A stretch of 14,895 nt of DNA from Rubrobacteraceae bacterium (GTDB lineage: Bacteria; Actinomycetota; Rubrobacteria; Rubrobacterales; Rubrobacteraceae). The notes below the pieces were generated by a model. That model was not told the DNA's origin. It worked only from the letters and a program-made list of their open reading frames with translations, and ran no database searches. The position numbers and the translations under genes were made by a program. Shown here piece after piece: positions 1-14,497 of the stretch (within the stretch, counting starts at the first letter, position 1; each line of letters opens with the position of its first letter). The stretch is from contig JAUJMB010000025.1 in assembly GCA_030447045.1 (NCBI GenBank), forward strand, positions 1 to 14,895. The letters are read 5' to 3'.

Positions 1-81
1 CAACAGCGTGAGGCCGACGAAGGCCCAGGAGACCGCCGTCAACCACCCGGGGATCATGCCCCCCATCTCGTCCATATTCAC
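1..81 (-). CDS. Membrane protein, N-terminal fragment (runs off the window)
   Basis: The minus strand is open from a GTG at 81-79 (or ATG at 75-73) to the window edge. It encodes about 27 residues: a short Met/Asp/Glu/Gly stretch followed by a hydrophobic segment (GWLTAVSWAFVGLTLL) that looks like a first transmembrane helix. The GTG is preferred because AGGGGAG (93-99, complement) lies 11 nt upstream; the ATG two codons later is further away. The family cannot be recognised from so little. Upstream lies a four-unit 11-bp direct repeat resembling a PHO box and a possible -10 element, so phosphate-responsive control is inferred. Being real and membrane-bound is likely; the function is unknown. 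Confidence 0.6.
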   Translation of the reverse strand, partial: MNMDEMGGMIPGWLTAVSWAFVGLTLL

Positions 82-153
82 GCTACGAACACTCCCCTCT
101 CAAAGTTTGGTTTCGATACGATCTACACGATACCTTCTACGGTCCAGCGCGAT

Positions 154-213
154 AAGATAGACCATCGGTGTGAAGAAGTCGTGAGAAATAGGTGAACAAG
201 CCGTGACTTCTAC
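154..213 (-). promoter_or_regulatory. PHO-box-like tandem 11-bp repeats with candidate -10
   Basis: Four consecutive 11-nt units (170-180, 181-191, 192-202, 203-213) each begin with GTGA on the plus strand, so each ends in TCAC on the minus strand; one contains GTTCAC. Exact 11-bp phasing is the hallmark of OmpR/PhoB-family sites, and actinobacterial PhoP boxes are built from GTTCACC-like 11-nt units (established knowledge). TATCTT (159-154, minus) lies 10 nt downstream of the array, where an activator-dependent -10 would sit, giving a leader of roughly 65 nt to the GTG at 81. The repeat is seen directly; the regulator identity is inferred. Confidence 0.6.
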
Positions 214-295
214 CCACCGTATGTCTTAGGAGTTTGAGCTCCCGGAACTTCGCGCCGGGGTTCTCAGCGGTTTGGCCTCGATGGAAGCGGGTGGG

Positions 296-913
296 TCAGG
301 CGAGCGGCCAGAGTGGCGTTCGCTCTACGACGACCGGAGAGAGGTCCGCGGGGAACTCCGTTCCTGGCCGCCCCAGCACGCAGAACTCGGGCGTGGGGCC
401 CAGCACCAGCTGTCGTCGCCAGAGGCTCGTTTGTGGTGCGTTCGTCCAGGGTTCGATCCGATCGTAGAACTCCCCGTAGGAGGTGCCGCGTTGCTTGGTC
501 AGCCAGGTGGCGAGGTCCGACCCCACCGCGGCGGGCTCACCGCTCCCGAACCCGTACAGGCCCCCGGCGCCGCCCACGGCGGACGCCCCGGCGACCCTGT
601 CGTGCGGGCCCTTGCGTTCCCCGGAGACGGCGAGCTCGTTCAGGGGGTCCAGCGCGGAGGAGCCGTCGAGCAGGTACCAGTCCTCGTAGCCGCGAAACCC
701 GGGACCGACCCATGGAGCCCCTTCGATGCGGAAGGTCGCCGAGCCACGAAACCCTCTCAGGTCCACCCCCGCCAGCGCCTCGTGGAAGGAGATCAGGCCC
801 CGCTCGTAGTCTCGGGGCTCCACACCCTCCGACGGCCAGTGCCAGAATACGTAGGCGAGCGCGCCCGTCTTGCCCTCCTTCGCTGGTCTATCTCTTCTGA
901 AAGATGATGGCAC
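296..913 (-). CDS. Uncharacterised ~190-205 aa protein (possible ferredoxin-like/EthD-like fold)
   Basis: A minus-strand reading frame ends with TGA at 298-296. From about residue 45 of the longest version it looks like a folded, soluble protein: aromatic-rich start (ALAYVFWHWPSEG), DYERGLISFHEALAG, a YEDWYLLDG segment, and a second half containing TSYGEFYDRIEPW and WRRQLVLGPTPEFCVLG. The two halves may be a duplicated alpha/beta unit as in dimeric alpha-beta-barrel proteins, but this is an impression, not a family match. The start is uncertain. GTG at 913 is the nearest standard start upstream of the compact region but has no good ribosome binding site. AAGGAGG at 880-874 sits 5 nt before an ACG codon (868-866), suggesting initiation there (190 aa). 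No membrane segment or signal peptide is evident. Confidence 0.65.
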   Translation of the reverse strand: MPSSFRRDRPAKEGKTGALAYVFWHWPSEGVEPRDYERGLISFHEALAGVDLRGFRGSATFRIEGAPWVGPGFRGYEDWYLLDGSSALDPLNELAVSGERKGPHDRVAGASAVGGAGGLYGFGSGEPAAVGSDLATWLTKQRGTSYGEFYDRIEPWTNAPQTSLWRRQLVLGPTPEFCVLGRPGTEFPADLSPVVVERTPLWPLA

Positions 914-1297
914 AAGTCCGGCCGGACCGCACGCGCCTTGCTCGGAACTTCGGAGGGCCACGAAGGTATGCGAGAGCGGCTGGAAGGCTCGAAAAAGCAC
1001 CCTCGTAGTCGTTGTTCAACGAACCCGTAGAAGCGGTGTAACATCCTGAAACCGTCCAGAAAGCCTCGAGAAGATGCCTGGAACCTCCGACGATTGGTCC
1101 TGAGACCGCAACAGCCGAAAGAAACGGCCCGTCTTGTTGGCCACGAAGCCCCGTTCGACCCGCCCGGGATTTTTCGGACGGTCTCTAACCGGCGCCTTAC
1201 TACCCGCCGACGCCTTTCTAGAGAGAGCCCACGGCATCTTCCTGCTCTCGGTTAATGAAAAGGCAAGCTTCGGGCGGTCGGAGGCATGCGACGCCGT
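914..1297. other. Gene-poor interval of 384 bp
   Basis: No convincing gene. Short minus-strand frames here have no family resemblance and no good ribosome binding site. A weak inverted repeat GAGAGC (1223-1228) / GCTCTC (1244-1249) lies downstream of the haloacid dehalogenase gene and could help end that transcript, but it has a 15-nt loop and no T-run. The promoter of the 296-913 gene presumably lies here; no clear -35/-10 pair was seen. Confidence 0.4.
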
Positions 1298-1963
1298 TCA
1301 GAGCCTCCCGGCGAGTTGCTCCAGGTCCTCCACCACGAGGTCGGCTTCGATGCCCCAGGGGTCGAAGACGGTGGCGGGGTCCCGCCTCACCCAGGCCGCC
1401 CGCAACCCCGCGGACTTCGCCCCGATCACGTCCCACCCGTTGCTGGAGACGAGCCACGTCTCCCCCACCGGCCGATCCAACCGCCGCGCGAGGTAGCGGT
1501 AGACCTCCGGGTCGGGCTTGAAGGTGCCCAGATCGTCCACGCTGACGACGGCCTCCAGGTTGTCGAGCACGCCGCCCCGCTCCAGCAGCACGCGCGACGT
1601 CCGCTCCACGCCGTTGGAGAAGGCGACCATGGTGTGCCCCTCGGACCGCAGCCGCTCGAGACCGGGCAACACGTCCGGGAAGGGCCGGAGGTTCTGGTAC
1701 TCCTCTACGAGACCCTCACGCTGGTTGTCCGAAAGCTCCAGGCCGAACGAGAGGGCGGCGAAATCCAGGGCCTGCCGGGTGCAGACCCCGAAGTCCGCGT
1801 ACTCGCGCATGAGGCCCCGCCGCCAGGTGTACTCGATCTGCTTTTCGCGCCAGAGGGCCGAGAAGCGCTCGGCCCCCTCCCCGACCATCTCCCTGAGGTG
1901 CTCGTCCATGTCCAGGGGGTCGACGAGCGTGCCGTAGATGTCGAAACCAAGCGCCTCGGGCAT
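1298..1963 (-). CDS. (S)-2-haloacid dehalogenase, type II (HAD superfamily)
   Basis: A 221-aa cytosolic enzyme predicted to hydrolyse the carbon-halogen bond of L-2-haloacids to D-2-hydroxyacids (EC 3.8.1.2). All catalytic positions of the family are visible: nucleophile Asp8 in FDIYGT with Thr12, Arg39 in WREKQIEYTW, Ser116-Asn117 in AFSNG, Lys149 in GTFKPDPEVY with Tyr155, and Ser173, Asn175, Asp178 in VSSNGWDVIGAK. The numbering is uniformly two less than in the well-known Pseudomonas enzymes. Length is typical (about 220-230 aa). The ATG is preceded by GAGGGGGAGG, and the gap to the upstream ABM stop is only 9 nt, so it is the last gene of the 2861-1298 operon. True substrate is unproven: type II family members also act on non-halogenated substrates, but retention of all nine residues favours dehalogenation. 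Confidence 0.9.
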   Translation of the reverse strand: MPEALGFDIYGTLVDPLDMDEHLREMVGEGAERFSALWREKQIEYTWRRGLMREYADFGVCTRQALDFAALSFGLELSDNQREGLVEEYQNLRPFPDVLPGLERLRSEGHTMVAFSNGVERTSRVLLERGGVLDNLEAVVSVDDLGTFKPDPEVYRYLARRLDRPVGETWLVSSNGWDVIGAKSAGLRAAWVRRDPATVFDPWGIEADLVVEDLEQLAGRL

Positions 1964-1972
1964 GCCTCCCCC

Positions 1973-2260
1973 TCAGGCCACGGCTTCCACGTGGCGCACC
2001 TCGGGCTGGCCGGCGAGGTAGGGTTCTATAGCCTCCCCGAAGCTCTCGAACTGGGGCCTCTGCGTGAGGTCCGTGTGCGCCTGGACGGAATCCCATTCCA
2101 CGATGGGGGTGAAAGAGTCAGGGTCCTCGACGCCCCGGTGGAGGCTCGCGCCCCTGCTGCCCTCCGCTTCGTCGGGGATGTTCGCGACACCCCCGTACGC
2201 CTCGACAAACGCCTTCGCCTGGCCCTCCCGCGTCTGCAACACCGCGATCTCGCGTACCAA
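1973..2260 (-). CDS. Antibiotic biosynthesis monooxygenase (ABM)-like small protein
   Basis: A 95-aa protein of the dimeric alpha/beta-barrel ABM type. It starts VREIAVLQTREGQAKAF, has the usual central SLHRGVEDPDSFTPIVEWDS strand-turn-strand, and ends with the ESFGEAIEPYL helix before a short strand. Family members are cofactor-free monooxygenases, heme-degrading enzymes or small-molecule-binding proteins; the substrate cannot be deduced. The start chosen is TTG at 2260-2258 because GGGAGGAAGAC lies immediately upstream and the length then fits the family (about 95-105 aa). The longer frame would run into the upstream gene with low-complexity sequence. It lies 58 nt after the selenoprotein-like gene and 9 nt before the dehalogenase, in one operon. 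It probably handles a reactive or oxidised metabolite together with its neighbours (inference). Confidence 0.78.
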   Translation of the reverse strand: MVREIAVLQTREGQAKAFVEAYGGVANIPDEAEGSRGASLHRGVEDPDSFTPIVEWDSVQAHTDLTQRPQFESFGEAIEPYLAGQPEVRHVEAVA

Positions 2261-2318
2261 GTCTTCCTCCCGGTCCGTGCGGAGAAGGGGGACGGCGGAC
2301 CGCCCCCCGAAAATATCC

Positions 2319-2861
2319 CTAGCTGTGTACCCGCTCGACCTTCGGTATGTCGAGCTCGGTGCCGGCGAGGTCGTTCGTGTAGTTGGAGAAGGTCGTAAGC
2401 GCAACGTGGGCGACCATCTCCAGGATCTCCTCGTCGCTGAAGCCGGCCTCGCGCGCCCCGTTAACTGCTTCGTCGGACGGGTGGCCCCTGGTCTCGACGA
2501 CCTCGCGGACGAACCTCAGGCCGGCCGCGCGCCGGGCGTCATCGGACTCGAAGCCCTGCGCCTGCCGGATCTCCTCTTCGCTCAACCCTTCCTGGCCTGC
2601 CAGGCCAGTATGGGCGGCCAGTCAATAATCGCAGCCGTTGAAGTCCGAGACGGCGACGGCTATGGACTCCTGCATCTTGCGATCGAGGGTGCCGCCCTTG
2701 AGCGTGGCGTTCAGGTCCATGTAGCCCCCGAACGCCGTCGGCGAGACGGCGAACGTCTTGTAGAAGTTCAACATCTTGCCGGCGCCCTTGGCGCCCTGCT
2801 CCATCAGCGGACGCGATGCCTCTGGGGCGCTCTCCTGCTCGACGGGCTCTACGCGCGGCAT
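2319..2861 (-). CDS. AhpD/carboxymuconolactone decarboxylase-family peroxidase-like selenoprotein (TGA = Sec80)
   Basis: One frame of 180 aa interrupted by a single TGA (2624-2622). The N-terminal half (79 aa, MPRVEPVEQE...) ends SDFNGCDY; after TGA the same frame continues LAAHTGLAGQEG... to FSNYTNDLAGTELDIPKV, a complete carboxymuconolactone-decarboxylase fold. The residues match the AhpD proton-relay site with exact spacing: Glu65, Cys77, TGA80, His84 correspond to Glu118, Cys130, Cys133, His137 of mycobacterial AhpD. TGA thus replaces the second cysteine of CxxC, giving CxxU. A bacterial SECIS-like hairpin follows the TGA. Family members reduce peroxides or act as disulfide reductants. 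The ATG (2861) follows GAGAGGAG. It is the first gene of the operon with the ABM protein and dehalogenase. The alternative is a TGC/TGT-to-TGA nonsense mutation, but the downstream part is well preserved. No selA/selB/selC is in the window to confirm decoding. Confidence 0.85.
2586..2621 (-). promoter_or_regulatory. Candidate bacterial SECIS element
   Basis: Directly after the in-frame TGA (2624-2622, minus) the mRNA can fold into a hairpin. CUGGCCU (2608-2602) pairs with AGGCCAG (2598-2592) around a three-base loop GGC. A lower CCC (2614-2612) / GGG (2588-2586) helix is separated by a 3x3 internal loop. Twenty nucleotides lie between UGA and the apical GGC. Known bacterial SECIS elements lie immediately 3' of the UGA inside the coding region, with an apical loop 16-37 nt away and a G among the first loop bases; all of these hold here. 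A second CTGGCC at 2621-2616 offers a competing pairing. Confidence 0.7.
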
Positions 2862-2896
2862 GGGTCTCCTCTCGTTCGTGGCCGCTACTATCCGCC

Positions 2897-2924
2897 AACA
2901 TACCCGAATTCCCGTATAGATAAA
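2897..2924 (-). promoter_or_regulatory. Candidate promoter and operator of the selenoprotein operon
   Basis: On the minus strand TTTATC (2924-2919) and TATGTT (2902-2897) are separated by 16 nt, a plausible though weak -35/-10 pair, about 35 nt before the start codon. The spacer holds an 18-bp dyad, ATAC-cc-GAATTC-cc-GTAT (2900-2917), symmetric apart from the two cc/cc positions. It stands out as AT-rich in this genome. Overlap of dyad and promoter suggests repressor control, inferred only. Confidence 0.35.
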
Positions 2925-3100
2925 ATCGCGGACCCTCCGAGGTGGCCCCTGCCCGGAACAAACCCAAACCACGCCCTAGAGCCTGTTTTGCATAGCTGAA
3001 GGCGCAAAGCCTGGAGTGAACCGCACGACCGCCGTCATCGTATCGTTTGCGTGTCTGTTTGTTTTGTAGGGAGTCGCGGGTTATGCCCGAAGGAGCTCGC

Positions 3101-3710
3101 ATGAGAGTCCTATTCGAGGGGTTCGACCGGCTGGACACCGCCCCTAACCGCTGGCCCGTCGCCCACAGCGTAACGCTGCTGCGCGTGAGCCTGGGCCTCG
3201 TCTTCCCGGCCTTCGGGGCTCTCGGGTTCTTCCGGGGGCCTCGGCCCCATCGAAGGCCTGGCGACGAGCACGACGACCGCGCTCACCTTCGGGCTCGTCC
3301 CGCCGGGCGCGGGGCTGGCGATGGTCGCCGCGCTGGAGGAGGTCGCCGTCGGCCTGTGCTTCGCGACGGGGAGGTTCCTGCGGGCGGAGGCGTGGCCGAT
3401 GGGGGCGCGGATGATCGGGGCGATGTCCCCGCTGGTGCTGTTCCCCGGGGGGCTGTTCGCCGGCCCCTCCCACGCCACGACCCTCGCGGCGCAGCACATC
3501 GTCAAGGACGCGGTGCTGGTGGCCGCGGCCGTGGTGGTGGCGTCCACCTGGGCGGGCGCTCGCATCGCGGCCCATCCCAGGAGCATAGGGAGCACCCTAG
3601 TGACGATGGCACCTCGCAAGGTCGTCGCTTCCCGTGGCGGCGCACCCGGCGTTCCCGTCCGCGCCCGCAGGGCCGGGGACTACAGCAGCTACGCGGAGGG
3701 GCGGGGCTGA
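3101..3710 (+). pseudogene. DoxX-like membrane protein, frameshifted
   Basis: ATG at 3101 follows AGGAG (3091-3095) with 5-nt spacing. The first frame encodes MRVLFEGFDRLDTAPNRWPV then a hydrophobic helix (SVTLLRVSLGLVFPAFGALGFF) typical of DoxX-like proteins. It then loses sense (Arg/Gly/Pro-rich). The expected continuation appears in another frame from about 3239: GPIEGLATSTTTALTFGLVP, then ALEEVAVGLCFATGRFLRA, PLVLFPGGLF, and a last helix DAVLVAAAVVVASTWAG. Removing one G from the G5 run at 3234-3238 restores about 200 aa ending at TGA 3708-3710. DoxX relatives are four-helix membrane proteins linked to thiosulfate:quinone oxidoreductase or thiol/redox complexes. A sequencing error in the homopolymer is as likely as a true pseudogene. 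It lies 89 nt before the sulfite-oxidase-like gene and probably shares its transcript. Confidence 0.75.
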
Positions 3711-3799
3711 GGGCTCCCGAGGTTATGCGCACGCCTAAAGATTTCGGGGTACGCAAGGTTCACGCGACGCTCGCCGGCCGCCGAAGAGGAGGAGACTAG

Positions 3800-4906
3800 A
3801 TGCCGAACAGGGTAACAGAGAGCGCGGAGTTTACCCGCGAGGAGGTGATACAGGCCCAGAGGTGCCACAGCATGCACGCGGAGGGCCTGCGCTATCCCGT
3901 GACCCCTCTGGGGATGCACTACCTCCTGATCCACTACGACATACCCTACGTGGATCCCGAAGCCTACGAGCTCGAGGTCGGGGGCCTCGTCCGGGAGCCG
4001 CTGAGGCTGACCCTCGAGGACATCAGGGCCCGCCCGAAGGTGACCGAGGCGGTGATGATGGAGTGCGCCGGCACCGGCCGCTCGCACGCCTCGCCCCGCA
4101 CCGTGTTCGTCCCCTGGTTCGACGGGGCCATAGGGTGCGCGGAGTGGGCCGGCACGCCGCTCGGGCCGATCCTGGAGGAGGCCGGACTGCTCGACGGGGC
4201 GGTCGAGGTCCTGTTCACCGGCCACGACCGGGGTATCGAGCAGGGCATAGAGCAGGTCTTCGAGCGCAGCCTCTCCCTCGATGAGGCCTCGCGCGAGGGG
4301 GTGATGCTCGCCTACGAGGTCAACGGCGTGCCCCTCTCGCCCCAGCACGGCGCGCCCCTGAGGCTCATAGTGCCCGACTGGTACGGGATGACCTCCGTGA
4401 AGTGGCTCCGGTCCATCACCGCGATAGCGGAGCCCTTCGACGGTTTCCACCAGGGGAACCAGTACCGCTACAAGCGCTCCGCCGACGAGAAGGGCGAGCC
4501 CGTCACCCGCCAGAGGCCCCGCGCCATGATGGCGCCGCCCGGCATCCCCTCCCAGCTCGGCCGGACGCGCTACGTGGAGGCAGGGCGGGTCCGGATAGAG
4601 GGCCGCGCGTGGTCGGGCTTCGGGGCGGTAGAACGGGTGGAGTTCAGCCCGGACGGCGGCAAGAGTTGGGAGGAGGCCGAGCTGGGAGGGCGGGTCGGGC
4701 GGTTCGGCTGGTTCGGATGGTCCCACGAGTGGGAGGCCGGCGCGCCCGGCGAGTACGAGCTCTCCTGCCGGGCCACCGACGCGGCCGGCAACGCCCAACC
4801 CCTCGACGCCGCAGAGGTCTGGAACCACGGCACCTACGGCGTCAACGCCGTCCAGCGCGTGCCCGTCGTCGTCAGGGAGAGGGGGGAACACCAGCGTCAA
4901 GGCTGA
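3800..4906 (+). CDS. Sulfite oxidase-like molybdopterin oxidoreductase (cytosolic)
   Basis: A 368-aa protein with the two-domain layout of the sulfite oxidase family. The N-terminal molybdopterin-binding domain spans about residues 30-215: HYLLIHYDIPYVD, YELEVGGLV, MMECAGTGRS with Cys89 as the predicted molybdenum ligand, and VPDWYGMTSVKWL. The C-terminal dimerisation domain (about 245-360) carries RIEGRAWSGFG, VEFSPDGGKSW and ELSCRATDAAGN. ATG at 3800 is preceded by GAGGAGGAG. Unlike periplasmic SorA/YedY-type enzymes there is no Tat or Sec signal peptide, so it is predicted cytosolic. There is no heme-b5 domain. Substrate (sulfite or another oxo-acceptor) is not fixed by sequence; the CAGTGRS motif differs from the CAGNRR of classical sulfite oxidases. 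Its DoxX-like neighbour suggests a sulfur-redox role. Confidence 0.88.
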   Translation: MPNRVTESAEFTREEVIQAQRCHSMHAEGLRYPVTPLGMHYLLIHYDIPYVDPEAYELEVGGLVREPLRLTLEDIRARPKVTEAVMMECAGTGRSHASPRTVFVPWFDGAIGCAEWAGTPLGPILEEAGLLDGAVEVLFTGHDRGIEQGIEQVFERSLSLDEASREGVMLAYEVNGVPLSPQHGAPLRLIVPDWYGMTSVKWLRSITAIAEPFDGFHQGNQYRYKRSADEKGEPVTRQRPRAMMAPPGIPSQLGRTRYVEAGRVRIEGRAWSGFGAVERVEFSPDGGKSWEEAELGGRVGRFGWFGWSHEWEAGAPGEYELSCRATDAAGNAQPLDAAEVWNHGTYGVNAVQRVPVVVRERGEHQRQG

Positions 4907-4918
4907 CCAACGGCCTCT

Positions 4919-4953
4919 GGAACGTTCCGAGAAGGCCCCTCCCGGAAACGTTC
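4919..4953 (+). terminator. Possible terminator after the sulfite-oxidase-like gene
   Basis: GAACGTTCCG (4920-4929) can pair with CGGAAACGTTC (4943-4953), a 10-bp stem with one bulged A and a 13-nt loop, starting 13 nt after the stop codon. No T-run follows, so intrinsic termination is uncertain. Confidence 0.4.
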
Positions 4954-5144
4954 TGCAACCGGCGACTGGCGGGCTCGTGGGCGCCCGGGAGGCCAAGATG
5001 AGGGGTCAAGTCCCCCCGAGGTACCGGAAGCCGCCACATCGCGTAACCGCTCTTATCCCTCCGACCTTGCCGACGCCGAATGGCTCCCGCCGGTGCCGCT
5101 GCTCGCGAGCCGCGTTGACGAACTACAGCGCGGTGGATCGCACA

Positions 5145-5176
5145 AGAGACCGAGACCGGCCGGCAAAACGGTCTCT
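5145..5176 (-). terminator. Terminator-like hairpin at the YfhO stop codon
   Basis: AGAGACCG (5145-5152) and CGGTCTCT (5169-5176) form a perfect 8-bp inverted repeat. On the minus strand it begins at the yfhO-like stop codon (5177-5175). A second GGTCTC copy directly adjacent gives an alternative pairing partner. There is only a short T-containing tail (TTGTGC), so strength is uncertain. Confidence 0.5.
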
Positions 5177-7625
5177 AGGACGCCTTGGCGGTCGGGAGGT
5201 TGTCCGCTCCTCTCCGGCGGCGGCGAGCAGCGGAGATCACCAGGACGGCGAGTGCCAGGTAGGCGGCCAGCGAGACCGCAAGGCCGGTCTGCAGGGTCCA
5301 CGACTCGTAGCGGAGCTCCACCGAGTGCTCCCCCGCGGGCACGGGGACCGCGCGCAGCGCGTGGTCGGCGGCGTAGAGGGGGGCCGGCTCGCCGTCGACG
5401 TAGGCCTTCCACGCCGGGTAGTACGCCTCGCTGAGCACGAGCAGCCCCCGCGCCCCGGTTGCGGTCTCGAGGCTGATACCGTCGGCCTCGTACTCCGTCA
5501 CCGTGGCGCGGTCGGCGGAAGGATTCTCCGGTTGGTCGAGGTCCGGGGGCGGCCTTTCCAGCAGGGCTGTCTCTCTCGGATCCACCGCGCCGGAGCCCAG
5601 TTGTTCTAGCGTCTCCGACCGCGGGACCTGACGCGCCGAGTGGACGATCCAGGCCCGGGGGAGCGCGTCGCGGTTTTCGAGCACCTCCGCCCGCTCGTCG
5701 TTGTACACGGTGGGGTGGGCCTCTTTCAGCTCCCGCAGCAGGGTCTCGTCCGGGTTCACGGCCGCGGGCAGGACCATGTAGCGGACGTTGAGCAGGTCCA
5801 GCAAGGGGGAGTCCAGCCCCTCCGCGTAGACGTCGGCGTTGTGATACCCCTGCGAAGCTCCGTTGAGCGCCTTCATGTACTCGTAGTACCGGGCTGGTTG
5901 GACGGGATTGTAGCCCTGGATGCTGTGCAGCCCCGGCGGGGTCCCCAGGTTGCTGGCCAGGAGCGCGGGGGCGGTTCCCTTCTCCGTGTACCTGTTGTTG
6001 TAGTGGAAGCTCTGGTTGTCGCCGCGCAGGTACGGGTTGAAGCCGAAGTAGCGGGCCGGCTCGTCGTCCGTCTCCGACCGGAGAAATTCGGCCACCGCCG
6101 AAGGTTCGTAGTAACGGGAGAGGTCGATCTTTACGAGCTCTTTGCCCGGGCTGGCGGTCTCGCGCTCCACGACGGCCGCCCTTCCCGCCACGGACAGGTC
6201 GGCGAAGACCAGGAGCACCACCACGAACGCCGAGATCCGGCACCCCACCGGAGAGCGGGCACAGACGATCGCGCACGCGCCCGCCCCGGCGAGGGCCAGC
6301 AGCGAGACCACGGGTATCTCCAGGCCCAGGTCGGCCAGAGACGAACCCCCCGCCCCATCACCGGTCGTAAAGAGCGCGACGAGGCGAGACGACAGAAAAA
6401 GGACGGTCAGCGCGGGCAGGACCATCACGGCACCGAGGCCCAGGCCCCGCTTCCCCAGGCTGCTCAGCGTGGCGCCGGCCAGGAGGGCGAGCCCGAGGTA
6501 GAGGACCACCTTTATTCGCTCGGGACCGTGGGGATGCATCCACTCGAAGCCGGGCAACGTCTGGTACAGGATCCAGTGCAGCGGCGTGGGGCCCTGGCCG
6601 GCCAGGATAAGGACGCAGAGCGAGAGGACCGCGAAGAAAGGCACGGCGTTGCGCCCGCGGGCGACCAGGGGCGCCGCGAGGGCGAGGGCCAGGACGACCA
6701 GGCCCGGGTAGGCGAGGCCGGGTACCGCCAGGCTCGCCAAGTCCCCCAACGTCCATCCTCCCCAGGCCCCCCTGACGCCTTCGAGGCTGGCGTAACCATC
6801 TGCCAGGTTCGACAGCCTCTGGTACTCCAGGCGGGGCAGCAGCCCGGCGGCGGCCAGGCCGAACCCGAACAGTAGCACCCCGCCGCCGTGGATCAGGGCG
6901 CCGAAGACCCGCCCCCGAAGGCCCCGGATGTTCTCCGGCGGGAAGAGGAGTGTGCGGTAGGCCACGTACCCGCCGAGGGCGAGCAGGGCGTAGTAGGAGC
7001 CCTGCCCGGGCCACGCGGCGAGCATCTGGCTCAACGCCAGCCCGCCCACACCCAACCAGAGGCCGCGCTGCGGCCAGCGGGCGCTGCGGACCGCAAGCTC
7101 CACGCCCAGGAGCGCGAGCGGGAGCCAGGCCATCACGCTGGCATACGGGGAGCAGCACAGGTTGCGCCAGTACAAAAAGACGTTGAACTCGTAGGCCACC
7201 GCGGCCAGCAGGGCGCCCGCCAGGTTCATGCGGAGCGCCCGCGCGAGGGCGTACGTGAAGAGCCCGGCGAGCAGCAGGTGGACATACAGGTAGCCATTGG
7301 CCGCCGCCGCCACCGGCAGCAGCGTGAACAGGACCATCGCCGGCAGGTAGGTCCAGCCGGAGAGGGGGTCGCCCGCGAACGGGGCCCCGCTGAACTGGTG
7401 CGGGTTCCAGCCAGGGACGTCCCCGGCGCGCAGCCTCTCGCCCAGGTACGAGTACCAGGTGTAGTACTGGGTTACGGTGTCCTTGCCGACCACGGTCCCG
7501 CCGTCCACGAGGTCCCACACCGCGACCAGGGCCAAGGCCGCCAGCAAGAGCCCGACGGCGAGGTCCTTGTAACGCTCGACGACCGGAAGTAGCCGGGAGC
7601 GTGCAAGCTTGGCCGCGAAGTTCAT
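5175..7625 (-). CDS. YfhO-family multi-pass membrane protein
   Basis: An 816-aa protein with the YfhO layout. After a short basic N-terminus there is a transmembrane helix (about 22-40). A GT-C-like external loop GKDTVTQYYTWYSYLGERLR with Asp49 follows, then DVPGWNPHQFSGAPFAGDPL. About eleven more hydrophobic helices reach to about residue 480, followed by a large extracytoplasmic domain (about 490-770, with FGFNPYLRGDNQSFHYNNRY and SEAYYPAWKAYVDGE). A final helix (about 782-800) and an Arg-rich tail end the protein. YfhO relatives are needed for glycosylation of cell-envelope polymers such as lipoteichoic acid in Bacillus and are thought to be lipid-linked-sugar glycosyltransferases; the substrate here is unknown. 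ATG at 7625 is preceded by AAGGAAGAGG. It appears monocistronic, diverging from the two-component system. Confidence 0.88.
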   Translation of the reverse strand: MNFAAKLARSRLLPVVERYKDLAVGLLLAALALVAVWDLVDGGTVVGKDTVTQYYTWYSYLGERLRAGDVPGWNPHQFSGAPFAGDPLSGWTYLPAMVLFTLLPVAAAANGYLYVHLLLAGLFTYALARALRMNLAGALLAAVAYEFNVFLYWRNLCCSPYASVMAWLPLALLGVELAVRSARWPQRGLWLGVGGLALSQMLAAWPGQGSYYALLALGGYVAYRTLLFPPENIRGLRGRVFGALIHGGGVLLFGFGLAAAGLLPRLEYQRLSNLADGYASLEGVRGAWGGWTLGDLASLAVPGLAYPGLVVLALALAAPLVARGRNAVPFFAVLSLCVLILAGQGPTPLHWILYQTLPGFEWMHPHGPERIKVVLYLGLALLAGATLSSLGKRGLGLGAVMVLPALTVLFLSSRLVALFTTGDGAGGSSLADLGLEIPVVSLLALAGAGACAIVCARSPVGCRISAFVVVLLVFADLSVAGRAAVVERETASPGKELVKIDLSRYYEPSAVAEFLRSETDDEPARYFGFNPYLRGDNQSFHYNNRYTEKGTAPALLASNLGTPPGLHSIQGYNPVQPARYYEYMKALNGASQGYHNADVYAEGLDSPLLDLLNVRYMVLPAAVNPDETLLRELKEAHPTVYNDERAEVLENRDALPRAWIVHSARQVPRSETLEQLGSGAVDPRETALLERPPPDLDQPENPSADRATVTEYEADGISLETATGARGLLVLSEAYYPAWKAYVDGEPAPLYAADHALRAVPVPAGEHSVELRYESWTLQTGLAVSLAAYLALAVLVISAARRRRRGADNLPTAKAS

Positions 7626-7840
7626 CTACCTCTTCCTTTTGCGGACTACGCGCCCGTCTCACTAGCCCCGTCGATGCCAAATTACGCTCCGCGGGCGCGC
7701 TTGGATCAAGGCCCGCAAACCCTCGGCACCCGTCCCCTCTCCCCGAAGTCTCTCCGGGCCATCGTGACACCGGAAGGGTAGCAGCACGGGGCAACGGGCA
7801 CGATAGCGCGTTTCCTCTGGTCGAGTCCCGCCGCCTAAAG

Positions 7841-7884
7841 TTAAGCCACTTGTAAGGACCTCGTAACCGTCGCGTAAGCGTAGC
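7841..7884 (+). promoter_or_regulatory. Tandem 11-bp TAA(G/C) repeats, probable OmpR-type regulator box
   Basis: TTAAG, GTAAG, GTAAC and GTAAG begin at 7841, 7852, 7863 and 7874, exactly 11 bp apart. Face-of-helix tandem units are how OmpR/PhoB-family dimers bind; MtrA and GlnR sites in actinobacteria are likewise built on GTnAC-n6 repeats (established knowledge). The adjacent response regulator is of that family, so autoregulation is the simplest reading. The array is about 150 bp upstream of that gene and could also serve the divergent YfhO-like gene. Confidence 0.6.
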
Positions 7885-8002
7885 GGGTTAGCGTGTCCTG
7901 TACGCCGAGAGATCGACCGCGGAGGGCGCACCGCTGCCGGGAGCATCCTGGTCGGGGCCGAGTTGCGCAGACGGGCTAAGGCGGGGCCGGTCGATGGCAG
8001 GA

Positions 8003-8008
8003 TATAAT
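8003..8008 (+). promoter_or_regulatory. Consensus -10 element (TATAAT) before the response regulator
   Basis: A perfect TATAAT lies 18 nt before the GTG at 8027 and 30 nt before the GTG at 8039. No recognisable -35 sits 16-18 nt upstream (the region is GC-rich), as expected if an activator is required or if the match is chance. Transcription from here would begin near 8015 and give a very short leader. Confidence 0.4.
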
Positions 8009-8026
8009 CCTGCGGAGAGGGGAGAA

Positions 8027-8725
8027 GTGGGTTCAGCGGTGGCAAAGGTCCTGATCGTCGACGACGAGCCGAACATCCGGGAGGTGGTCGGCCTCTACCT
8101 GCGCCGCGACGGCCACGCCGTCGTCTCGGCCGCCGACGGCGAGGAGGCCCTGGAGCTTTTCCACATTAGCGACCCCGACCTCGTCGTGCTGGACCTGATG
8201 CTCCCGAAGGTCAGCGGGCTGGAGGTGTGCCGCCGGATGCAGGCCGAGCGGAGGGTACCCCTGATCATGCTCACGGCCCGGGGCGCGGAAGAGGAGCGCA
8301 TAGTCGGCCTCGGCCTCGGCGCCGACGACTACGTGGTCAAGCCCTTCAGCCCGCGCGAGCTCGCCGCGAGGGTGGCGGCGGTCCTGCGCCGCGCGGGGGA
8401 GGCCCCGCCCGGGGACGCCGGCGAGAGGGTCCTGGCCTTCGACGGGCTGCGGATCGACCCCAACACGCGCGAGGTCCTGGTTGGCGGCGAGCCGGCGAAC
8501 CTCACGGCGCGGGAGTTCGACCTTCTCTACCACCTGGCCGCAAGCCCCGGCCGGGTCTACACCCGCGACCACCTCATGGAGGTGGTATGGGGCTACGCGT
8601 TCTCGGCGGACACCAGCACCGTCACCGTGCACATGCGCCGGCTGCGCGAGAAGGTGGAGCCGGACCCGGCCCACCCACGCTACCTGCAGACCGTGTGGGG
8701 CGTCGGGTACAAGTTCGCCGGATGA
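8027..8725 (+). CDS. OmpR/PhoB-family response regulator
   Basis: A two-domain regulator of about 230 aa. The receiver domain (AKVLIVDDEPNIREVV onward) has the acidic pair Asp8-Asp9, phospho-acceptor Asp52 in VVLDLMLPK, Thr79 in MLTA and Lys101 in VVKPFSP (numbering from the GTG at 8039; add four for 8027). The C-terminal winged-helix domain has NLTAREFDLLYHLA, TRDHLMEVVWGY, the recognition-helix region STVTVHMRRLREKVE and the terminal VWGVGYKF. Two starts are possible. GTG at 8027 has GGAGAGG 6 nt away; GTG at 8039 gives the common MAKVLIVDD start but a 14-nt spacing. It overlaps the kinase gene by ATGA, so they form one operon. Its likely targets include the 11-bp repeats upstream of itself and of ccdA (inference). 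Confidence 0.93.
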   Translation: MGSAVAKVLIVDDEPNIREVVGLYLRRDGHAVVSAADGEEALELFHISDPDLVVLDLMLPKVSGLEVCRRMQAERRVPLIMLTARGAEEERIVGLGLGADDYVVKPFSPRELAARVAAVLRRAGEAPPGDAGERVLAFDGLRIDPNTREVLVGGEPANLTAREFDLLYHLAASPGRVYTRDHLMEVVWGYAFSADTSTVTVHMRRLREKVEPDPAHPRYLQTVWGVGYKFAG

Positions 8726-9957
8726 GGGGGACGCTCCGGACGGCCGGCGTGGCGCTACTGTTCCTCGCCGTCTCTTTAGCGGCGGCGCTCCTCGCCGCGG
8801 TGACCCTCGGCCTGCCGGAGGCGGACCTGCCGCTCGTGGCCGCGTTGCTCGCCGGGGCGGGCGGCGGGGGCGGGCTGCTCGCCCTGCTTCTCATACGGCC
8901 CGCCGTGCTCGGGCGCCTCGGCGGGGTGCGGGCGCAGCTCGTGGGGGCCGGGCTCGTCGGCACCCTGCTCCTCCTGGGGATGATGCTCGCCGGGGCGCGG
9001 GCCATGTTCCTCTCCGGCCACGACCTCTCGCTCCTGCTGACGATGCTCGTCTTCGCGGCGGTCCTCTCCGTCGGCTTCAACCTGCTCTGCGCGAGGCCGC
9101 TGGCGGACCGCATCGGGCGGGTGCGGGCAGGGACGGCCAGGGTCGCCGCCGGGGATCTGGAGTCCGAGGTGCCCGTGGAGGGCCACGACGAGGTAGCGGG
9201 CCTGGCCGAGGACTTCAACCGCATGGCCCGGGCGCTCGCGGCGGCGGCCGGACGCGAGCGGGAGATGGAGAAGGCGCGGCGCGACCTCATCGCCGCCGTC
9301 TCCCACGACCTGCGCACGCCGCTCGCCTCGACGAGGGCCCTGATCGAAGCCGTCGCCGACGGCGTCGCCGAGGACACCGAGGCCGAGGCCCGCTACCTCT
9401 CCTCCGCCAAGCGCGAGCTCGCCCACCTCAGCCGTCTCGTGGACGACCTCTTCGAGCTCGCCAGGATAGACGCGGGGGTCCTGCAGCTCACCATGGAAGC
9501 GGCCTCCCTACACGACCTTATCTCCGACACCATCTCGAGCTTCAAGCCGCAGGCCGACAACCGGGGCATCCGCCTCGTCGGCGAGGTCTCGGGCGACGTG
9601 GACCCGGTCCTCGCAAACCCGCCCCGGCTCCAGCGCGTGCTCCACAACCTCGTCTCGAACGCCCTGCGCCACACCCCGGCCGACGGCACCGTGGCCCTGC
9701 GCGCCGCCGCGCAGGGGGGTGAGGTTCGGGTCGAGGTCTCCGACACCGGCGAGGGCATCGCCCCGGAAGACTTGCCCCGCATCTTTGAACGCTCCTTCCG
9801 CGCCGAGAAGTCCCGCAGCCGCGGGACGGACGACCCCGGCGCCGGCCTCGGCCTGGCGATAGCCAGGGGCCTCGTCGAGGCGCACGGCGGCACCATGGAC
9901 GTCGAGAGCGAGCCGGACCGGGGCTCGCGCTTCCGCTTCACGCTCCGCCGCGCCTAG
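8722..9957 (+). CDS. Sensor histidine kinase (HAMP, HisKA, HATPase)
   Basis: A 411-aa membrane kinase that phosphorylates the overlapping response regulator. The N-terminal ~125 residues contain about four hydrophobic helices (9-29, 38-59, 72-92, 102-123). The extracytoplasmic loops are very short, so the signal is probably sensed in or near the membrane. A HAMP-like segment (ARPLADRIGRVRAGTARVAAGDLE) spans about 124-175. The HisKA H-box AVSHDLRTPL places the phospho-accepting histidine at 195. The ATPase domain shows the N-box NLVSNALRHTP (309-319), G1 DTGEGI (341-346), the F-box-like RIFERSF and G2 GAGLGLAIA (373-381). The start ATG overlaps the regulator's TGA (ATGA), indicating translational coupling. 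The stimulus is not deducible. Confidence 0.93.
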   Translation: MRGTLRTAGVALLFLAVSLAAALLAAVTLGLPEADLPLVAALLAGAGGGGGLLALLLIRPAVLGRLGGVRAQLVGAGLVGTLLLLGMMLAGARAMFLSGHDLSLLLTMLVFAAVLSVGFNLLCARPLADRIGRVRAGTARVAAGDLESEVPVEGHDEVAGLAEDFNRMARALAAAAGREREMEKARRDLIAAVSHDLRTPLASTRALIEAVADGVAEDTEAEARYLSSAKRELAHLSRLVDDLFELARIDAGVLQLTMEAASLHDLISDTISSFKPQADNRGIRLVGEVSGDVDPVLANPPRLQRVLHNLVSNALRHTPADGTVALRAAAQGGEVRVEVSDTGEGIAPEDLPRIFERSFRAEKSRSRGTDDPGAGLGLAIARGLVEAHGGTMDVESEPDRGSRFRFTLRRA

Positions 9958-9958
9958 C

Positions 9959-10018
9959 GGTTCGAGAATCAATCGCCCGAACCACGTTGTCGGCTATCAG
10001 CTCCTGTCGAGGCAGGAG
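9959..10018 (+). terminator. Two small hairpins after the kinase gene
   Basis: GGTTCG (9959-9964) pairs with CGAACC (9978-9983), directly after the stop codon. CTCCTG (10001-10006) pairs with CAGGAG (10013-10018) with a 6-nt loop. Neither has a T-run; together they could attenuate read-through into the ccdA operon. Confidence 0.3.
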
Positions 10019-10085
10019 GACCCGCAGCGAGGAGTGTGGGCCCGGGGGTGAGCTTCGGGGGGACCGGAGCGTCTTCGGGAGAGAC

Positions 10086-10107
10086 CTTACGGGTTCCTTA
10101 CGGCTGA
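10086..10107 (+). promoter_or_regulatory. Two 11-bp CTTACGG repeats upstream of ccdA
   Basis: CTTACGG at 10086 and again at 10097 are exactly 11 bp apart. CTTAC is the reverse complement of the GTAAG units in the array at 7841-7884, so the same OmpR-type regulator may bind both. The site is about 125-145 bp upstream of the ccdA start. Confidence 0.5.
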
Positions 10108-10229
10108 GACGTCTGGGCTGGGGATCCGTTGTTGGCCGTCGGGACTCGTGTGAAAATCGTGGCGGCGGGCTATCTCTGGAGTTGTCGGTCGGATGAACGG
10201 GCGGTTCAAGACCTTGGTGGAGGGCTAGG

Positions 10230-10922
10230 ATGGCGGAGCCGACGCTCGTCGTCGCCGCCCTCGCCGGGCTCGCGTCTTTCCTGTCGCCGTGCATGTTGCC
10301 CGTCATCCCGGCCTTTCTCGCCCAGATGGCGGGCACGTCGCTCGACGTCTCCGACTTGAGGCGGCGGGACGTCCTCTTTGGCACGGTGCTTTTCGTGGCC
10401 GGGTTTTCGACCGTTTTTGCCGGGCTCGGGGTGACGCTTGGGGCGGTGCTTCAGGGGGTGGCAACGGAGGCCATCGCGTGGCTCTCGCGGGCGGCGGGGA
10501 CGGTCGTGATCCTGCTGGGGCTGCACCTGACGGGGTTGCTGCGCCTCCCGCTGCTGGACCGCCAGGGCTCCCCGCGGTCCCGTTCGGGGCACCTAGCACC
10601 CCTGCTGTTCGGGGCGTCCTTCGCCGTGGCGTGGACGCCGTGCGTCGGGCCTATCCTGGGCAGCACGCTCGCCCTCGCGACCACGCAACCGGCCGCGGCG
10701 TTCCCGCTGCTGCTCGCGTACGCCGGCGGGCTCGGGGCGCCCTTCCTGCTCGTCGGCCTCTTCCCGTCGCGGGCCCTGTCGTTCCTGAAGGGGCACCGCA
10801 GGGCCGCGGCGCGCCTGCACGTGGCGTTCGGGGTGGTCCTGATCGGGCTCGGCGTCCTCGTCTTCACCAACAAGCTGAGCCTGCTCGCCAACTTCCAGCT
10901 ACTCAACGAGGTGCTCCTGTGA
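10230..10922 (+). CDS. ccdA: CcdA/DsbD-type transmembrane thiol electron transporter
   Basis: A 230-aa polytopic membrane protein of the CcdA family, which carries electrons from cytosolic thioredoxin across the membrane to extracytoplasmic thiol-disulfide proteins, classically for cytochrome c maturation. The two hallmark cysteines lie in the expected pseudo-repeat motifs: Cys21 in SFLSPCMLPVIP and Cys138 in AVAWTPCVGPILG. About six hydrophobic helices are visible (4-30, 49-75, 83-107, 122-148, 155-177, 195-215) and the length is typical. ATG at 10230 follows GGAGGG. It overlaps the next gene by GTGA, so the partner is the TlpA-like protein. No cytochrome c maturation genes are in the window, so other extracytoplasmic clients remain possible. 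Confidence 0.9.
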   Translation: MAEPTLVVAALAGLASFLSPCMLPVIPAFLAQMAGTSLDVSDLRRRDVLFGTVLFVAGFSTVFAGLGVTLGAVLQGVATEAIAWLSRAAGTVVILLGLHLTGLLRLPLLDRQGSPRSRSGHLAPLLFGASFAVAWTPCVGPILGSTLALATTQPAAAFPLLLAYAGGLGAPFLLVGLFPSRALSFLKGHRRAAARLHVAFGVVLIGLGVLVFTNKLSLLANFQLLNEVLL

Positions 10923-11704
10923 GGTCCGTGGTCCCCCGTCCCGTCCTGCTCGTCCTCGCCCTGGTCGCGGTGGCCTGCGCCATCGCCTTTATCGAACTGC
11001 GTCTCGACGCAAGAGGCCCCGTCTCGGCCGAAGCCAGCCAGAACCCACCTCCCGCGGAGGAGCAGGCGAGACCAGAGGCCCCGACCGTCGAAGGGACGCC
11101 CGATGCCGCCGCGGGCGAACGGAGAGAGGTGACCGCGCCCCCATCTCCCGCCCGCAAGCGGGAGCAAGGCCCCGAAGACCGCGCCGCCGAAGGGAAGGCA
11201 GCCCCGGCCGTCTCCGACGCGGAGCGGATCGCCGGGAAAGAAGCGGAGCACCGGCGGGCGGAGGAGATCTCCAACCCCTCCGGCTTCGTGAACGCGGAGG
11301 ATTTCTCGGTGCGGGAGGCCGCCGGGGAGAAGGTCGTCCTGCTGGAGTTCTGGACCTACACCTGCTTTAACTGCCAGAACGTCCAGCCCCACGTAAACGC
11401 CTGGCACGACGCGTACGCCGAAGACGGGTTGCAGGTCGTCGGCGTCCACACGCCGGAGTTCGGGTTCGAGCGGGAGTACGCCAACGTGGAGGCCGCCGTG
11501 CGGGAGGCCGGGATCGAGTACCCCGTCGTCTTGGACAACGCATACGCCACGTGGGACGCCTACGACAACCGCTACTGGCCCGCCATCTACCTGATCGACG
11601 CCGACGGCTTCGTCCGCTACAAGCACTTCGGCGAGGGCGCCTACGAGGAGACGGAGGCGAAGATCCAAGAGCTCCTGGCGGAGCGGGACCGCATCTCGGG
11701 CTGA
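10919..11704 (+). CDS. Membrane-anchored TlpA/DipZ-like thioredoxin (CFNC)
   Basis: A 261-aa protein. An N-terminal hydrophobic helix (about 8-26) acts as signal anchor. A long charged Pro/Ala/Glu-rich linker (about 30-118) follows, then a thioredoxin fold (about 122-258). The redox motif is EFWTYTCFNCQNVQPHV with Cys149 and Cys152. VVGVHTPEFGFE, YPVVLDNAYATWDAY and RYWPAIYLID, with cis-proline at about Pro221, match the thioredoxin part of DipZ proteins, where it is fused to a CcdA domain. The GTG at 10919 overlaps the ccdA stop (GTGA) and GAGG lies 7 nt upstream. CcdA should keep it reduced on the outer face of the membrane. It could instead act as an oxidase or peroxidase-like protein; the family comparison favours a reductase role. 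Confidence 0.9.
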   Translation: MRSVVPRPVLLVLALVAVACAIAFIELRLDARGPVSAEASQNPPPAEEQARPEAPTVEGTPDAAAGERREVTAPPSPARKREQGPEDRAAEGKAAPAVSDAERIAGKEAEHRRAEEISNPSGFVNAEDFSVREAAGEKVVLLEFWTYTCFNCQNVQPHVNAWHDAYAEDGLQVVGVHTPEFGFEREYANVEAAVREAGIEYPVVLDNAYATWDAYDNRYWPAIYLIDADGFVRYKHFGEGAYEETEAKIQELLAERDRISG

Positions 11705-11748
11705 CCCGCCCTCGAACCCGGTCCGAAAGGGAACCGGCTCGGCGGGAT

Positions 11749-11793
11749 CCGGCGCCCCGACGCCTCCCCTCCGGGAGCGGGTCGGGGCGCCGG
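11749..11793. terminator. Bidirectional terminator between convergent operons
   Basis: CCGGCGCCCCGAC (11749-11761) and GTCGGGGCGCCGG (11781-11793) form a perfect 13-bp inverted repeat. Inside it CTCCC/GGGAG makes a second short hairpin. It lies 45 nt after the TlpA-like stop and 12 nt from the DUF2339 stop on the other strand, the right place to stop both transcripts. There is no T-run on either side. A smaller bulged hairpin CCGGTCC...GGAACCGG (about 11718-11736) precedes it. Confidence 0.7.
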
Positions 11794-11804
11794 GTAAGCG
11801 GCCC

Positions 11805-14072
11805 CTACGACGGACGGCGGGAGAGGTGGCGGCCGGGAGCGTGGGGCGCGTCTGCGTCCTCGCGCGGGTTCCAGAGGTTGCGCAGGTGGTAGCTCAGGAG
11901 CAGGAACAGCCCGCCGAAGCCGAGGAAGAGGAGGACGCGCCAGAGCGGGTCGAGCGCGGCGAGGTCCCACAGGAAGAGCTTGGCGACCACGAGGAAGAGC
12001 GTCGCGACCCCGCCCCTGATGAGGTACGTGTGGTCCCGGCGCAGCCCGGCGACGAACATCGCGGCACCCGTGAGCCCCCAGGCGACGGTGACGTAGGCGT
12101 CGGGGGAGCCCGGCAGCGGCCCGAGCTCGCGCCAGAACCACGCGAGCAGGGCCGCGTGGGCCGCGATGCGGTAGACGAGAGCGGTCTTACGGCCCGCGAC
12201 GGTCCACGAGCACGCCAGGATCAGGGCGACGACGGCGAGGTCCGCGATGCCCCAGAGGCCCCAGCGGCCGACGATGCTCCACCCGAAGCCATCCGGAAGG
12301 GCCATCCCCACCGCGAGCCTGCCGGCGAGCCACAGCCCGACGAAGACGGAGAGGGCGTGCGCCCCGCCCACCGTCCCCCACTCCGGGCGCCGCCGCGAGA
12401 GCAAATGAAGCCCGGCGGCGTAGAGCGCCAGCGCCACGAGGGCGTAGACCCCGTCGGTCAGGGGGACGAGCTCGCGCAACAGCAGGCCCGCTGCCGCCGC
12501 GTGCGCGAAGACCCGGTACACGCGCCGGACCTCGGGCGCCGCGAGCGCCGTGGAGCCCGCGAACGCGAGGGCCAAGATCGCGAGGCCAACGAGCGCGTCC
12601 ACGTTGAGGAACGGCATCATGGCGGCAGGATCGAAGATATTCTGCAACGTCCCGTCCAAGAGCAGGGGGAATACCCAGGCCGCGACCACGGTGAAGAGAG
12701 CGTGGCCAATAAGGGAGACGGCCCTGTCCGAGAGCCTCCTGGCGACGAAATGCAACGCAGCGGCCTCGACGGCCAGCACGAGCAGCAGCGCCTCCCCTTC
12801 CAGCAGGAAGGCCAGCGAGAACGTCGCGAACAGCAGCGCGACGATGGCCTGTGCGTGGGAGACGCGCTCCCCGCGCCCGACCCGCCGGAACCCGATCCAG
12901 GCGAGGGCGTGGGAGACCGAGATCCCGAGCGCCACCAGCCCGAGGGTGGTCCTACCAGGACTCCACAACAGATGCGTCATCCACAGCGAGATCAGGGGCG
13001 AGGCGAACGAGAGCAGACGCGCCAGTGTTCCGTCCACAAAGAAGCGCTCCTTGTCGCCCGCGAGCAACCGCATCGCGGTCCCGACCTCCGGGACCCGCCA
13101 ACGCCGCGGGCTCACGTGACGGAGCGCCTCCCGCGCGGAGGGCACGAGCCACAGCAGGACCCACCCGAAGAGTACCCCGGCCTGCAGCGCCACCCCGTCG
13201 GCGACCGGCAGCGGGCCGACCGGGTCGACGCCCGCGTGTCCGGTGAACAGGACGGCCCAGTACCCGCCGAACGCGACCAGCAGGAGCGAACGCCAGCCTT
13301 TGAGCAGGTACATCCCCATCGCCCCCGCGAGGACGAGCCCGGCGTACAGCACGAGCCCGCCGAGGGCGCCGTCCCCGTCGTAGAGCAAGAAAGGCGTGGC
13401 AAGGCCGCCGGAGACCCCGATGACGGCCAGCGCCGCCCCCTCCTGGTGCAGCGCCAGGGCGAAGGCGAGCAGGGTGACGGCCGCCATGAACGCGAACGCC
13501 ACGGGATACGAGAACACGCCAAGCATGTTGAACGCGGCGAACCCGGTGATGTAGTACGTCCCTATCCCACCCCCAAGCACCACCTGCGCGAAGGCCCGCC
13601 TGCCCGCGTAGACGCGCAACCCGACCCATACGAGCGCGGTCCCGAGAAGGATCCCGAGCCCCACCCGCACCGCCGGCGTCAGGAGTACCTGAAGCCACCC
13701 CCTGTCCCACGAGAACTTGAACAGGAACACCACGCCCATGAGGAAGAGCGCGATGCCCACCTTGTTCATCCACCACTCCCACCGCCGCAGGTTCGCCAGC
13801 TCGAAGGGCGACTCCAGCCCCCGCCACCTCTCACCCAGGGGCCGATTCCTCTCCCGGCCTTCCGGCGCGTCCGGTCCCATAACGGCCCCCGCCCCCCCTC
13901 GAGAGCCGCCGACGCTCGCAGTCCCACGGCCCACCCCGGCCCGTTCCGGGACCGCCACGTCCCGGGGAGGCGCCAGGCTCAGCCGCAAGCGCTCTAACTC
14001 CCGTTCGTGCCCCTCGAAGTCGGCCTCCAGGCGTCGTACGCGTTCTTCCAGGTTCTGCCCGCCCTCGCGCAT
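11805..14072 (-). CDS. DUF2339-family large polytopic membrane protein
   Basis: A 755-aa protein. The first 35 residues form a predicted coiled coil (NLEERVRRLEADFEGHEREL), followed by a Gly/Pro/Arg-rich linker to about residue 95. The conserved membrane entry WEWWMNKVGIALFLMGVVFL follows, then about 20 or more hydrophobic helices to the C-terminus, including QVVLGGGIGTYYITGFAAF and GGLATPFLLYDGDGALGG, typical of DUF2339. The short polar tail is Arg/His/Pro-rich. No catalytic motif is known to me; the family is uncharacterised and presumed envelope-related. ATG at 14072 is chosen because GGGAGGA and GGAAG precede it and it overlaps the upstream stop as TAATG; the longer in-frame extension overlaps the upstream gene and is low-complexity. 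Confidence 0.88.
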   Translation of the reverse strand: MREGGQNLEERVRRLEADFEGHERELERLRLSLAPPRDVAVPERAGVGRGTASVGGSRGGAGAVMGPDAPEGRERNRPLGERWRGLESPFELANLRRWEWWMNKVGIALFLMGVVFLFKFSWDRGWLQVLLTPAVRVGLGILLGTALVWVGLRVYAGRRAFAQVVLGGGIGTYYITGFAAFNMLGVFSYPVAFAFMAAVTLLAFALALHQEGAALAVIGVSGGLATPFLLYDGDGALGGLVLYAGLVLAGAMGMYLLKGWRSLLLVAFGGYWAVLFTGHAGVDPVGPLPVADGVALQAGVLFGWVLLWLVPSAREALRHVSPRRWRVPEVGTAMRLLAGDKERFFVDGTLARLLSFASPLISLWMTHLLWSPGRTTLGLVALGISVSHALAWIGFRRVGRGERVSHAQAIVALLFATFSLAFLLEGEALLLVLAVEAAALHFVARRLSDRAVSLIGHALFTVVAAWVFPLLLDGTLQNIFDPAAMMPFLNVDALVGLAILALAFAGSTALAAPEVRRVYRVFAHAAAAGLLLRELVPLTDGVYALVALALYAAGLHLLSRRRPEWGTVGGAHALSVFVGLWLAGRLAVGMALPDGFGWSIVGRWGLWGIADLAVVALILACSWTVAGRKTALVYRIAAHAALLAWFWRELGPLPGSPDAYVTVAWGLTGAAMFVAGLRRDHTYLIRGGVATLFLVVAKLFLWDLAALDPLWRVLLFLGFGGLFLLLSYHLRNLWNPREDADAPHAPGRHLSRRPS

Positions 14073-14488: not shown

Positions 14489-14497
14489 TCCAACCGA

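Follow-up and report, generated by a model that had tools for sequence, protein, structure and literature searches.

An AhpD-like gene of a Rubrobacteraceae bacterium with an in-frame TGA at the second CxxC position: a predicted selenoprotein and its clade in Rubrobacteria

Among the closest described relatives of the gene presented here are the AhpD-like proteins with selenocysteine (Sec, U) in place of the second Cys of CxxC (CxxU), of which 27 sequences from the Sargasso Sea were reported in 2005 (PMC1088965) and two groups of 299 and 70 sequences in 2008 (PMC2398784), while a table from 2026 has rows for TIGR01926 and PF02627 (PMC13188914). For Rubrobacter xylanophilus, five selenoproteins were counted in 2006 (PMC1794560), and its tRNA-Sec is mentioned in 2017 (PMC5330540). 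In this study, we analyzed a stretch of 14,895 nucleotides from a Rubrobacteraceae bacterium (assembly GCA_030447045.1, contig JAUJMB010000025.1, positions 1 to 14,895; this whole stretch is hereafter the window), which contains an AhpD-like reading frame crossed by a TGA codon predicted to encode selenocysteine. An earlier note on this DNA had proposed a likely new selenoprotein; what is new is this gene and its Rubrobacteria clade, not the kind, since AhpD-like CxxU proteins have been known since 2005 (PMC1088965). The two features on which the analysis centers are as follows.

2319..2861, minus strand: AhpD-like (CMD domain) gene, 180 amino acids on read-through, ATG start with AGAGGAGA upstream, TAG stop
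2622..2624, minus strand: TGA codon, residue 80, predicted selenocysteine at the second position of the CxxC/CxxU motif, where most homologues have Cys

The window protein resembles the Sargasso Sea CxxU selenoprotein in its domain family, in the second CxxC position as the (here predicted) site of Sec, and in a hairpin past the TGA that is similar to a selenocysteine insertion sequence (SECIS). It differs from the AhpD-like CxxU/TIGR01926 proteins in belonging to a Rubrobacteria clade that has a stem branch of its own (0.66, 100/100, in a tree without the Sargasso sequences) and in its operon with a haloacid dehalogenase, and the five Rubrobacteria members scored with TIGR01926 lie below its cut-off of 81.8 bits (59.7-81.1 bits: window protein 62.5, L037 80.1, L044 70.6, L047 59.7, L040 81.1), as do the Cys homologues P0002 and P0064. 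The NCBIfam models for AhpD-type selenoproteins also score below their cut-offs (NF041238, 29.7 against 175 bits; NF041047, 27.3 against 110; NF053654, 37 against 310), and the only NCBIfam model over its cut-off for the window protein and four orthologues is the general AhpD core, TIGR00778 (54.7 against 27.8 bits for the window protein). The window gene has TGA where the AhpD or 'peroxidase-related' CxxC family (PDB 6e8l, 3lvy, 2prr) has the codon of its second Cys. The use of Sec is common to this bacterial genus group, and the part of PMC1794560 available to us does not name an AhpD-like selenoprotein for R. xylanophilus.

Read from 2861 to 2319 on the minus strand, the frame translates as MPRV...NGCDY-U80-LAAH...VHS followed by TAG, 180 residues in all with a single in-frame TGA (2624-2622). 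The Pfam domain CMD (PF02627) spans that codon (residues 47-101, 62.1 bits against a cut-off of 23); the upstream half alone reaches 21.1 bits, below the cut-off, and the downstream open reading frame (2319-2585) alone gave no match in a Pfam scan. The predicted fold is AhpD-like and forms one helical domain across residue 80. Glu65, Cys77, TGA80 and His84 are spaced 12/3/4, as are what we take to be their AhpD counterparts, Glu118-Cys130-Cys133-His137. A H137F mutant of Mycobacterium tuberculosis AhpD is mentioned in the title of one paper. The earlier note had described exactly this, one frame with family sequence on both sides of the TGA and AhpD spacing around it, and the translation agrees. 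Open frames across a TGA are common in the window (around 23 TGAs of its six frames, 60 or more codons are open in either direction), so that the case rests on homology and conservation; this TGA stands above chance through the homology on both its sides, the Cys at the same column in most homologues and the retention of TGA in relatives.

At E ≤ 0.001, 741 relatives came up among protein sequences, the best 120 of which were listed. Two of them, P0016 (92% identity) and P0080 (82% identity), stop one residue short of the TGA position, the codon that follows being unreadable from a protein; this is the splitting by gene callers that the earlier note had expected. Among the best 120 of the 741 relatives, P0002-P0008, considered as protein sequences only, are 56-64% identical to the window protein and have Cys at residue 80, and across 116 aligned relatives Cys77 is invariant and Cys80 occurs in at least 90%. 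Of 10 loci found in a scan of genome contigs, eight belong by title to Rubrobacteraceae, Rubrobacter or Actinobacteria/Actinomycetota (56-93% identity), and all of these have TGA at residue 80, including L008, which ends at residue 86; the two distant loci have Cys.

The pattern is the same across the class, sampled as 39 Rubrobacteria genomes (searches by order and by class gave the same 39). Fifteen of them hold 17 matches at 49% identity or more (49-93%), and TGA stands at residue 80 in 16/16 copies covering the site, the seventeenth (G008:C231) beginning at residue 96; each Rubrobacteria match has one TGA and no further stop. Among three weaker matches (27-31%), two (G026, G039) have Cys and one (L054 in G007) has a TGA of its own. 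Within 396 Actinomycetota genomes, 33 had a match at E ≤ 1e-20, namely the same 15 and 18 others (33-39% identity), and because the matches of these 18 lack an in-frame stop, the TGA form is seen only in Rubrobacteria within this sample. In viral contigs, 63 stretches fitted a search pattern and none was a relative, and plasmids yielded only short matches of 68-76% in four records. After the TGA, the ratio of nonsynonymous to synonymous substitution (dN/dS) lay between 0.15 and 0.44 for the eight comparisons that included the window and between 0.03 and 0.44 for four further pairs. The downstream frame is therefore under purifying selection, and nothing suggests the decay that the earlier note had named as a possible refutation.

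Components of Sec decoding are encoded by the relatives of the window's organism. The nearest of them, G001 (93% identical in the AhpD-like protein and 94% in the haloacid dehalogenase), has selA, selB, tRNA-Sec and a TGA-containing selD, the last lying on the same contig as its AhpD gene, about 2.8 kb away. Across the eight genomes of loci L001-L008, SelB is above the cut-off in five, and the same five have tRNA-Sec (ARAGORN tRNA-SeC, anticodon TCA in all), which adjoins selB in four; SelA occurs in four, with one partial copy beside a masked stretch, and SelD in six, every best match having one in-frame TGA. The one SelB scanned with Pfam, that of L013, has the SelB winged-helix domain. In the class as a whole, selB is above the cut-off in 29/39 genomes and in 12/15 carriers of the AhpD gene. 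The complete pathway (SelA, SelB, SelD, tRNA-Sec) is present in the nearest relative and some other carriers.

The third feature lies just past the TGA.

2592..2608, minus strand: candidate SECIS hairpin CTGGCC-TGGCA-GGCCAG, 13 nt after the TGA, with 6 bp, or 7 bp with a U-A closing pair and the loop GGC

No Rfam family reached its gathering score anywhere in the window, so the hairpin was judged by its pair changes. The window and its two nearest relatives share their own stem, CTGGCC/GGCCAG, 13 nt past the TGA, the single difference among the three being a C-to-T change in L035 that keeps the pairing as G-U. Outside this group, 12/13 relatives have a 6-bp stem CTCCGC/GCGGAG 11 nt after the TGA; in L049, one stem pair is U-G. 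The bases closing the loop in this wider clade are the third positions of codons +6 and +7, and they form A-U, G-C or C-G, four of each in 12 distinct sequences without exception. Their covariation score was reached by 0/500 shuffles and was lost when the partners were slid, and at least four changes of this pair fall on the tree (12 rows, with the topology of the 48-protein tree). A G occupies the second place of the loop in all but L043, in agreement with the apical guanosine reported for bacterial SECIS elements (PMC1088965). A SECIS-like hairpin with a G in a small apical loop is present just past the TGA. By eye, a comparable hairpin, GCTCC(A/G)G-GGG(T/A)C-CTGGAGC, follows soon after the TGA of selD at L031-L034.

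In the tree of 48 proteins, which include five near Cys forms, the Sec forms and these five make up one clade (100/100, stem 0.66), within which the near Cys forms are nested with L040, L041 and L043, then with L045/L046 (98/85 and 99/93). The simplest reading is one basal change from Cys to Sec and one later change from Sec to Cys, and P0002-P0008 would then likely represent a Sec-to-Cys replacement. Neither the Rubrobacteria clade nor the nested Cys branch nor the linkage with the dehalogenase was found in print, in a literature search that was thin on subscription papers.

Apart from this locus, three observations concern further TGA-containing genes of the Rubrobacteria genomes. In the genome that carries L041, the Sec gene occurs a second time at a contig end, L052 (positions 1-477; G006:C329), 49% identical and likewise with a TGA and the 6-bp hairpin. 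At L054 (positions 1501-2025; G007:C147:7322-7858), a distant AhpD-like frame, 27% identical, has a TGA in a CFYU motif and lies about 2.2 kb from a TGA-containing selD, which makes it a second selenoprotein candidate. The SelD encoded at the L031-L034 loci is itself TGA-containing.

The TGA could also be explained without selenocysteine. Were it the mark of a pseudogene or a sequencing error, a Cys codon (TGC or TGT) having become TGA and left two fragments, the Cys at residue 80 of P0002-P0008 and the three carrier genomes with no selB over the cut-off would fit, as would the window frame 3101-3707, which looks split by one frameshift, so that errors or decay may occur nearby. The same TGA recurs, however, in every site-covering Rubrobacteria copy from separate genomes, dN/dS past it is 0.15-0.44, and each match has this single TGA with no other stop; with the codon conserved and dN/dS low, decay or sequencing error is very unlikely. 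If the TGA were instead a true stop, the 79-residue upstream half would be the functional product and the downstream half a separate gene, as gene callers predict for the relatives P0016 and P0080. Against this, the CMD match extends over the two halves, structure prediction gives a single helical domain that runs through the site, and the downstream half, which by itself matches no Pfam family, keeps the AhpD frame in full-length relatives. We give this explanation hardly any credence. Translation of the TGA as Trp or another amino acid through a changed code or a suppressor tRNA is a formal possibility for every in-frame TGA, and nothing was found in its favor. It is contradicted by the Cys found at this column in homologues and by the tRNA-Sec (TCA anticodon), SelB and SelA of relatives, and it is rejected, as practically excluded, because five other genes in the window use TGA as their normal stop.

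Several points weigh against decoding of the TGA as selenocysteine, or against the element and activity that we associate with it. The window-type hairpin is known from three near-identical sequences and starts 2 nt later after the TGA than the stem of the other clade members, and in L043, the thirteenth relative of the wider group, one pair is broken and the loop G is lacking at its usual place. Only 1/7 stem pairs changes on both sides, four pairs being invariant, and shuffles did as well both in the number of covarying pairs and in the number of pair types (462 and 432 of 500 as high). The folding energy of the window is ordinary (z -1.40, with 20/200 shuffles as good, and -1.61), and z-scores of relatives (-2.50 to -0.12) overlap those of four Cys homologues (-2.56 to 0.12), a control in which the motif filter picked up only 4/18 loci tried. 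Third-position identity over codons +1 to +10 is slightly raised (0.57 versus 0.53 and 0.49); this average and the folding energy are weak measures and were not used as main support. No selB over the cut-off was found in the carriers G002, G005 and G008 (3/15) and no selD over the cut-off in G002 and G005; these assemblies may be incomplete, and G008 has a TGA-containing selD despite having no selB over the cut-off. The Sec machinery of the window's own organism is deduced from relatives; the search for Sec decoding genes suggested in the earlier note gave the full set in G001, selB in 12 carriers and no selB over the cut-off in these three. Peroxidase-type activity of the CxxU enzyme, which we regard as moderately probable, is argued by analogy. 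With all this weighed, comparison of the sequences makes it very probable that the TGA at 2624-2622 is decoded as selenocysteine, the identity that the earlier note had suggested from its position at a catalytic thiol and that is supported by the 16 TGA copies and by selection; the comparison proposed there, of Cys or TGA at position 80, gave TGA throughout the site-covering Rubrobacteria copies and Cys in most other homologues.

The AhpD-like gene heads an operon with an ABM-like protein and a haloacid dehalogenase, as the earlier note had stated.

1973..2260, minus strand: ABM domain protein, second gene of the operon (PF03992, 43.6 bits), TTG start after GGGAGGAA, TGA stop
1298..1963, minus strand: type II haloacid dehalogenase (L-2-haloacid dehalogenase-like), third in the operon (TIGR01428, 183.4 bits, cut-off 125.4), TGA stop

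The closest solved relatives of the third protein are haloacid dehalogenases (PDB 3um9, 1jud). It has a DxYGT rather than a DxDGT motif, and its FDIYGTL, SNG, KPDP and SSNGWD stretches, which presumably are catalytic, align with 1jud. In 14/15 carriers, a dehalogenase gene follows downstream of AhpD at a distance of no more than 1 kb, including G036, in which it is split in two pieces and was missed by the genome-wide dehalogenase search (E ≤ 1e-40); in G038, it lies about 108 kb from the AhpD gene. An ABM homologue stands between the two genes in the window and in 6/15 carriers. The pairing is one-sided and the partners are not obligate, since another 12 genomes of the class have the dehalogenase (E ≤ 1e-40) and lack the AhpD gene; in the six of these that were inspected, no AhpD or ABM gene was found within about 2.5-3 kb of the dehalogenase.

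The following mechanism is proposed by analogy with AhpD. SelB and tRNA-Sec would act at the downstream hairpin to place Sec at residue 80, and Sec80 would then attack as a selenolate and be resolved by Cys77, while Glu65 and His84 would relay protons, these roles being taken from AhpD. The function would most likely be selenol-based reduction of peroxides or disulfides, and the enzyme may share a task with the ABM protein and the haloacid-dehalogenase-type protein of the operon, such as acting on organic compounds that are oxidised or halogenated. We consider it highly probable that this conserved AhpD-like gene with its Sec-decoded TGA specifies a redox enzyme of the CxxU type, for which hydroperoxides or related oxidised compounds are the predicted substrates to be reduced.

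Alternatively, the Sec enzyme might use its selenol for reductive dehalogenation in the manner of Bmp8, a debrominase with the AhpD fold, and act beside the hydrolytic haloacid dehalogenase. Thyroid deiodinase is a selenoenzyme in which selenocysteine attacks a carbon-bound halogen, and in the window protein Sec80 would do so as Cys-based Bmp8 is thought to, a deiodinase-like chemistry on an unrelated fold. If this were true, the gene would encode a reductive dehalogenase of bacteria that depends on selenium and is built on the AhpD fold, in a clade with one branch that has gone back to Cys. However, Bmp8 (PDB 6ohi/6ohj) is 18% identical to the window protein, and it was not among the 13 single-sequence matches at E ≤ 0.001; AhpD or peroxidase-related structures are closer (6e8l, 117.1 bits), and the haloacid dehalogenase is not an obligate partner, given the 12 genomes that have it without the AhpD gene. 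We therefore regard this alternative as unlikely.

Elsewhere in the window, the plus-strand frame 3101-3707 is membrane-protein-like and has an apparent frameshift near 3231-3240, where a run of 46 codons gives way to 159 codons in a different frame; its identification as DoxX was dropped, as Pfam matched neither piece. The region 10230-11704 of the plus strand encodes a CcdA/DsbD-type membrane protein followed by an AhpC-TSA/thioredoxin-fold protein with a CFNC motif, possibly a thiol-redox pair.

Reading the AhpD-like frame through its TGA as a selenoprotein sets right a gene for whose relatives databases list truncated proteins, and what standard gene finding has halved is likely a working enzyme of a known kind. 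It adds a Rubrobacteria clade to the AhpD-like selenoproteins, with a candidate SECIS that compensatory changes support, and a testable lead to the substrate comes from the haloacid dehalogenase gene linked to it. Since the clade contains matched Sec and Cys orthologues, the Cys forms being about 60% identical to the window protein and nested within the Sec forms, what these bacteria may gain from selenium in this enzyme would be directly measurable.
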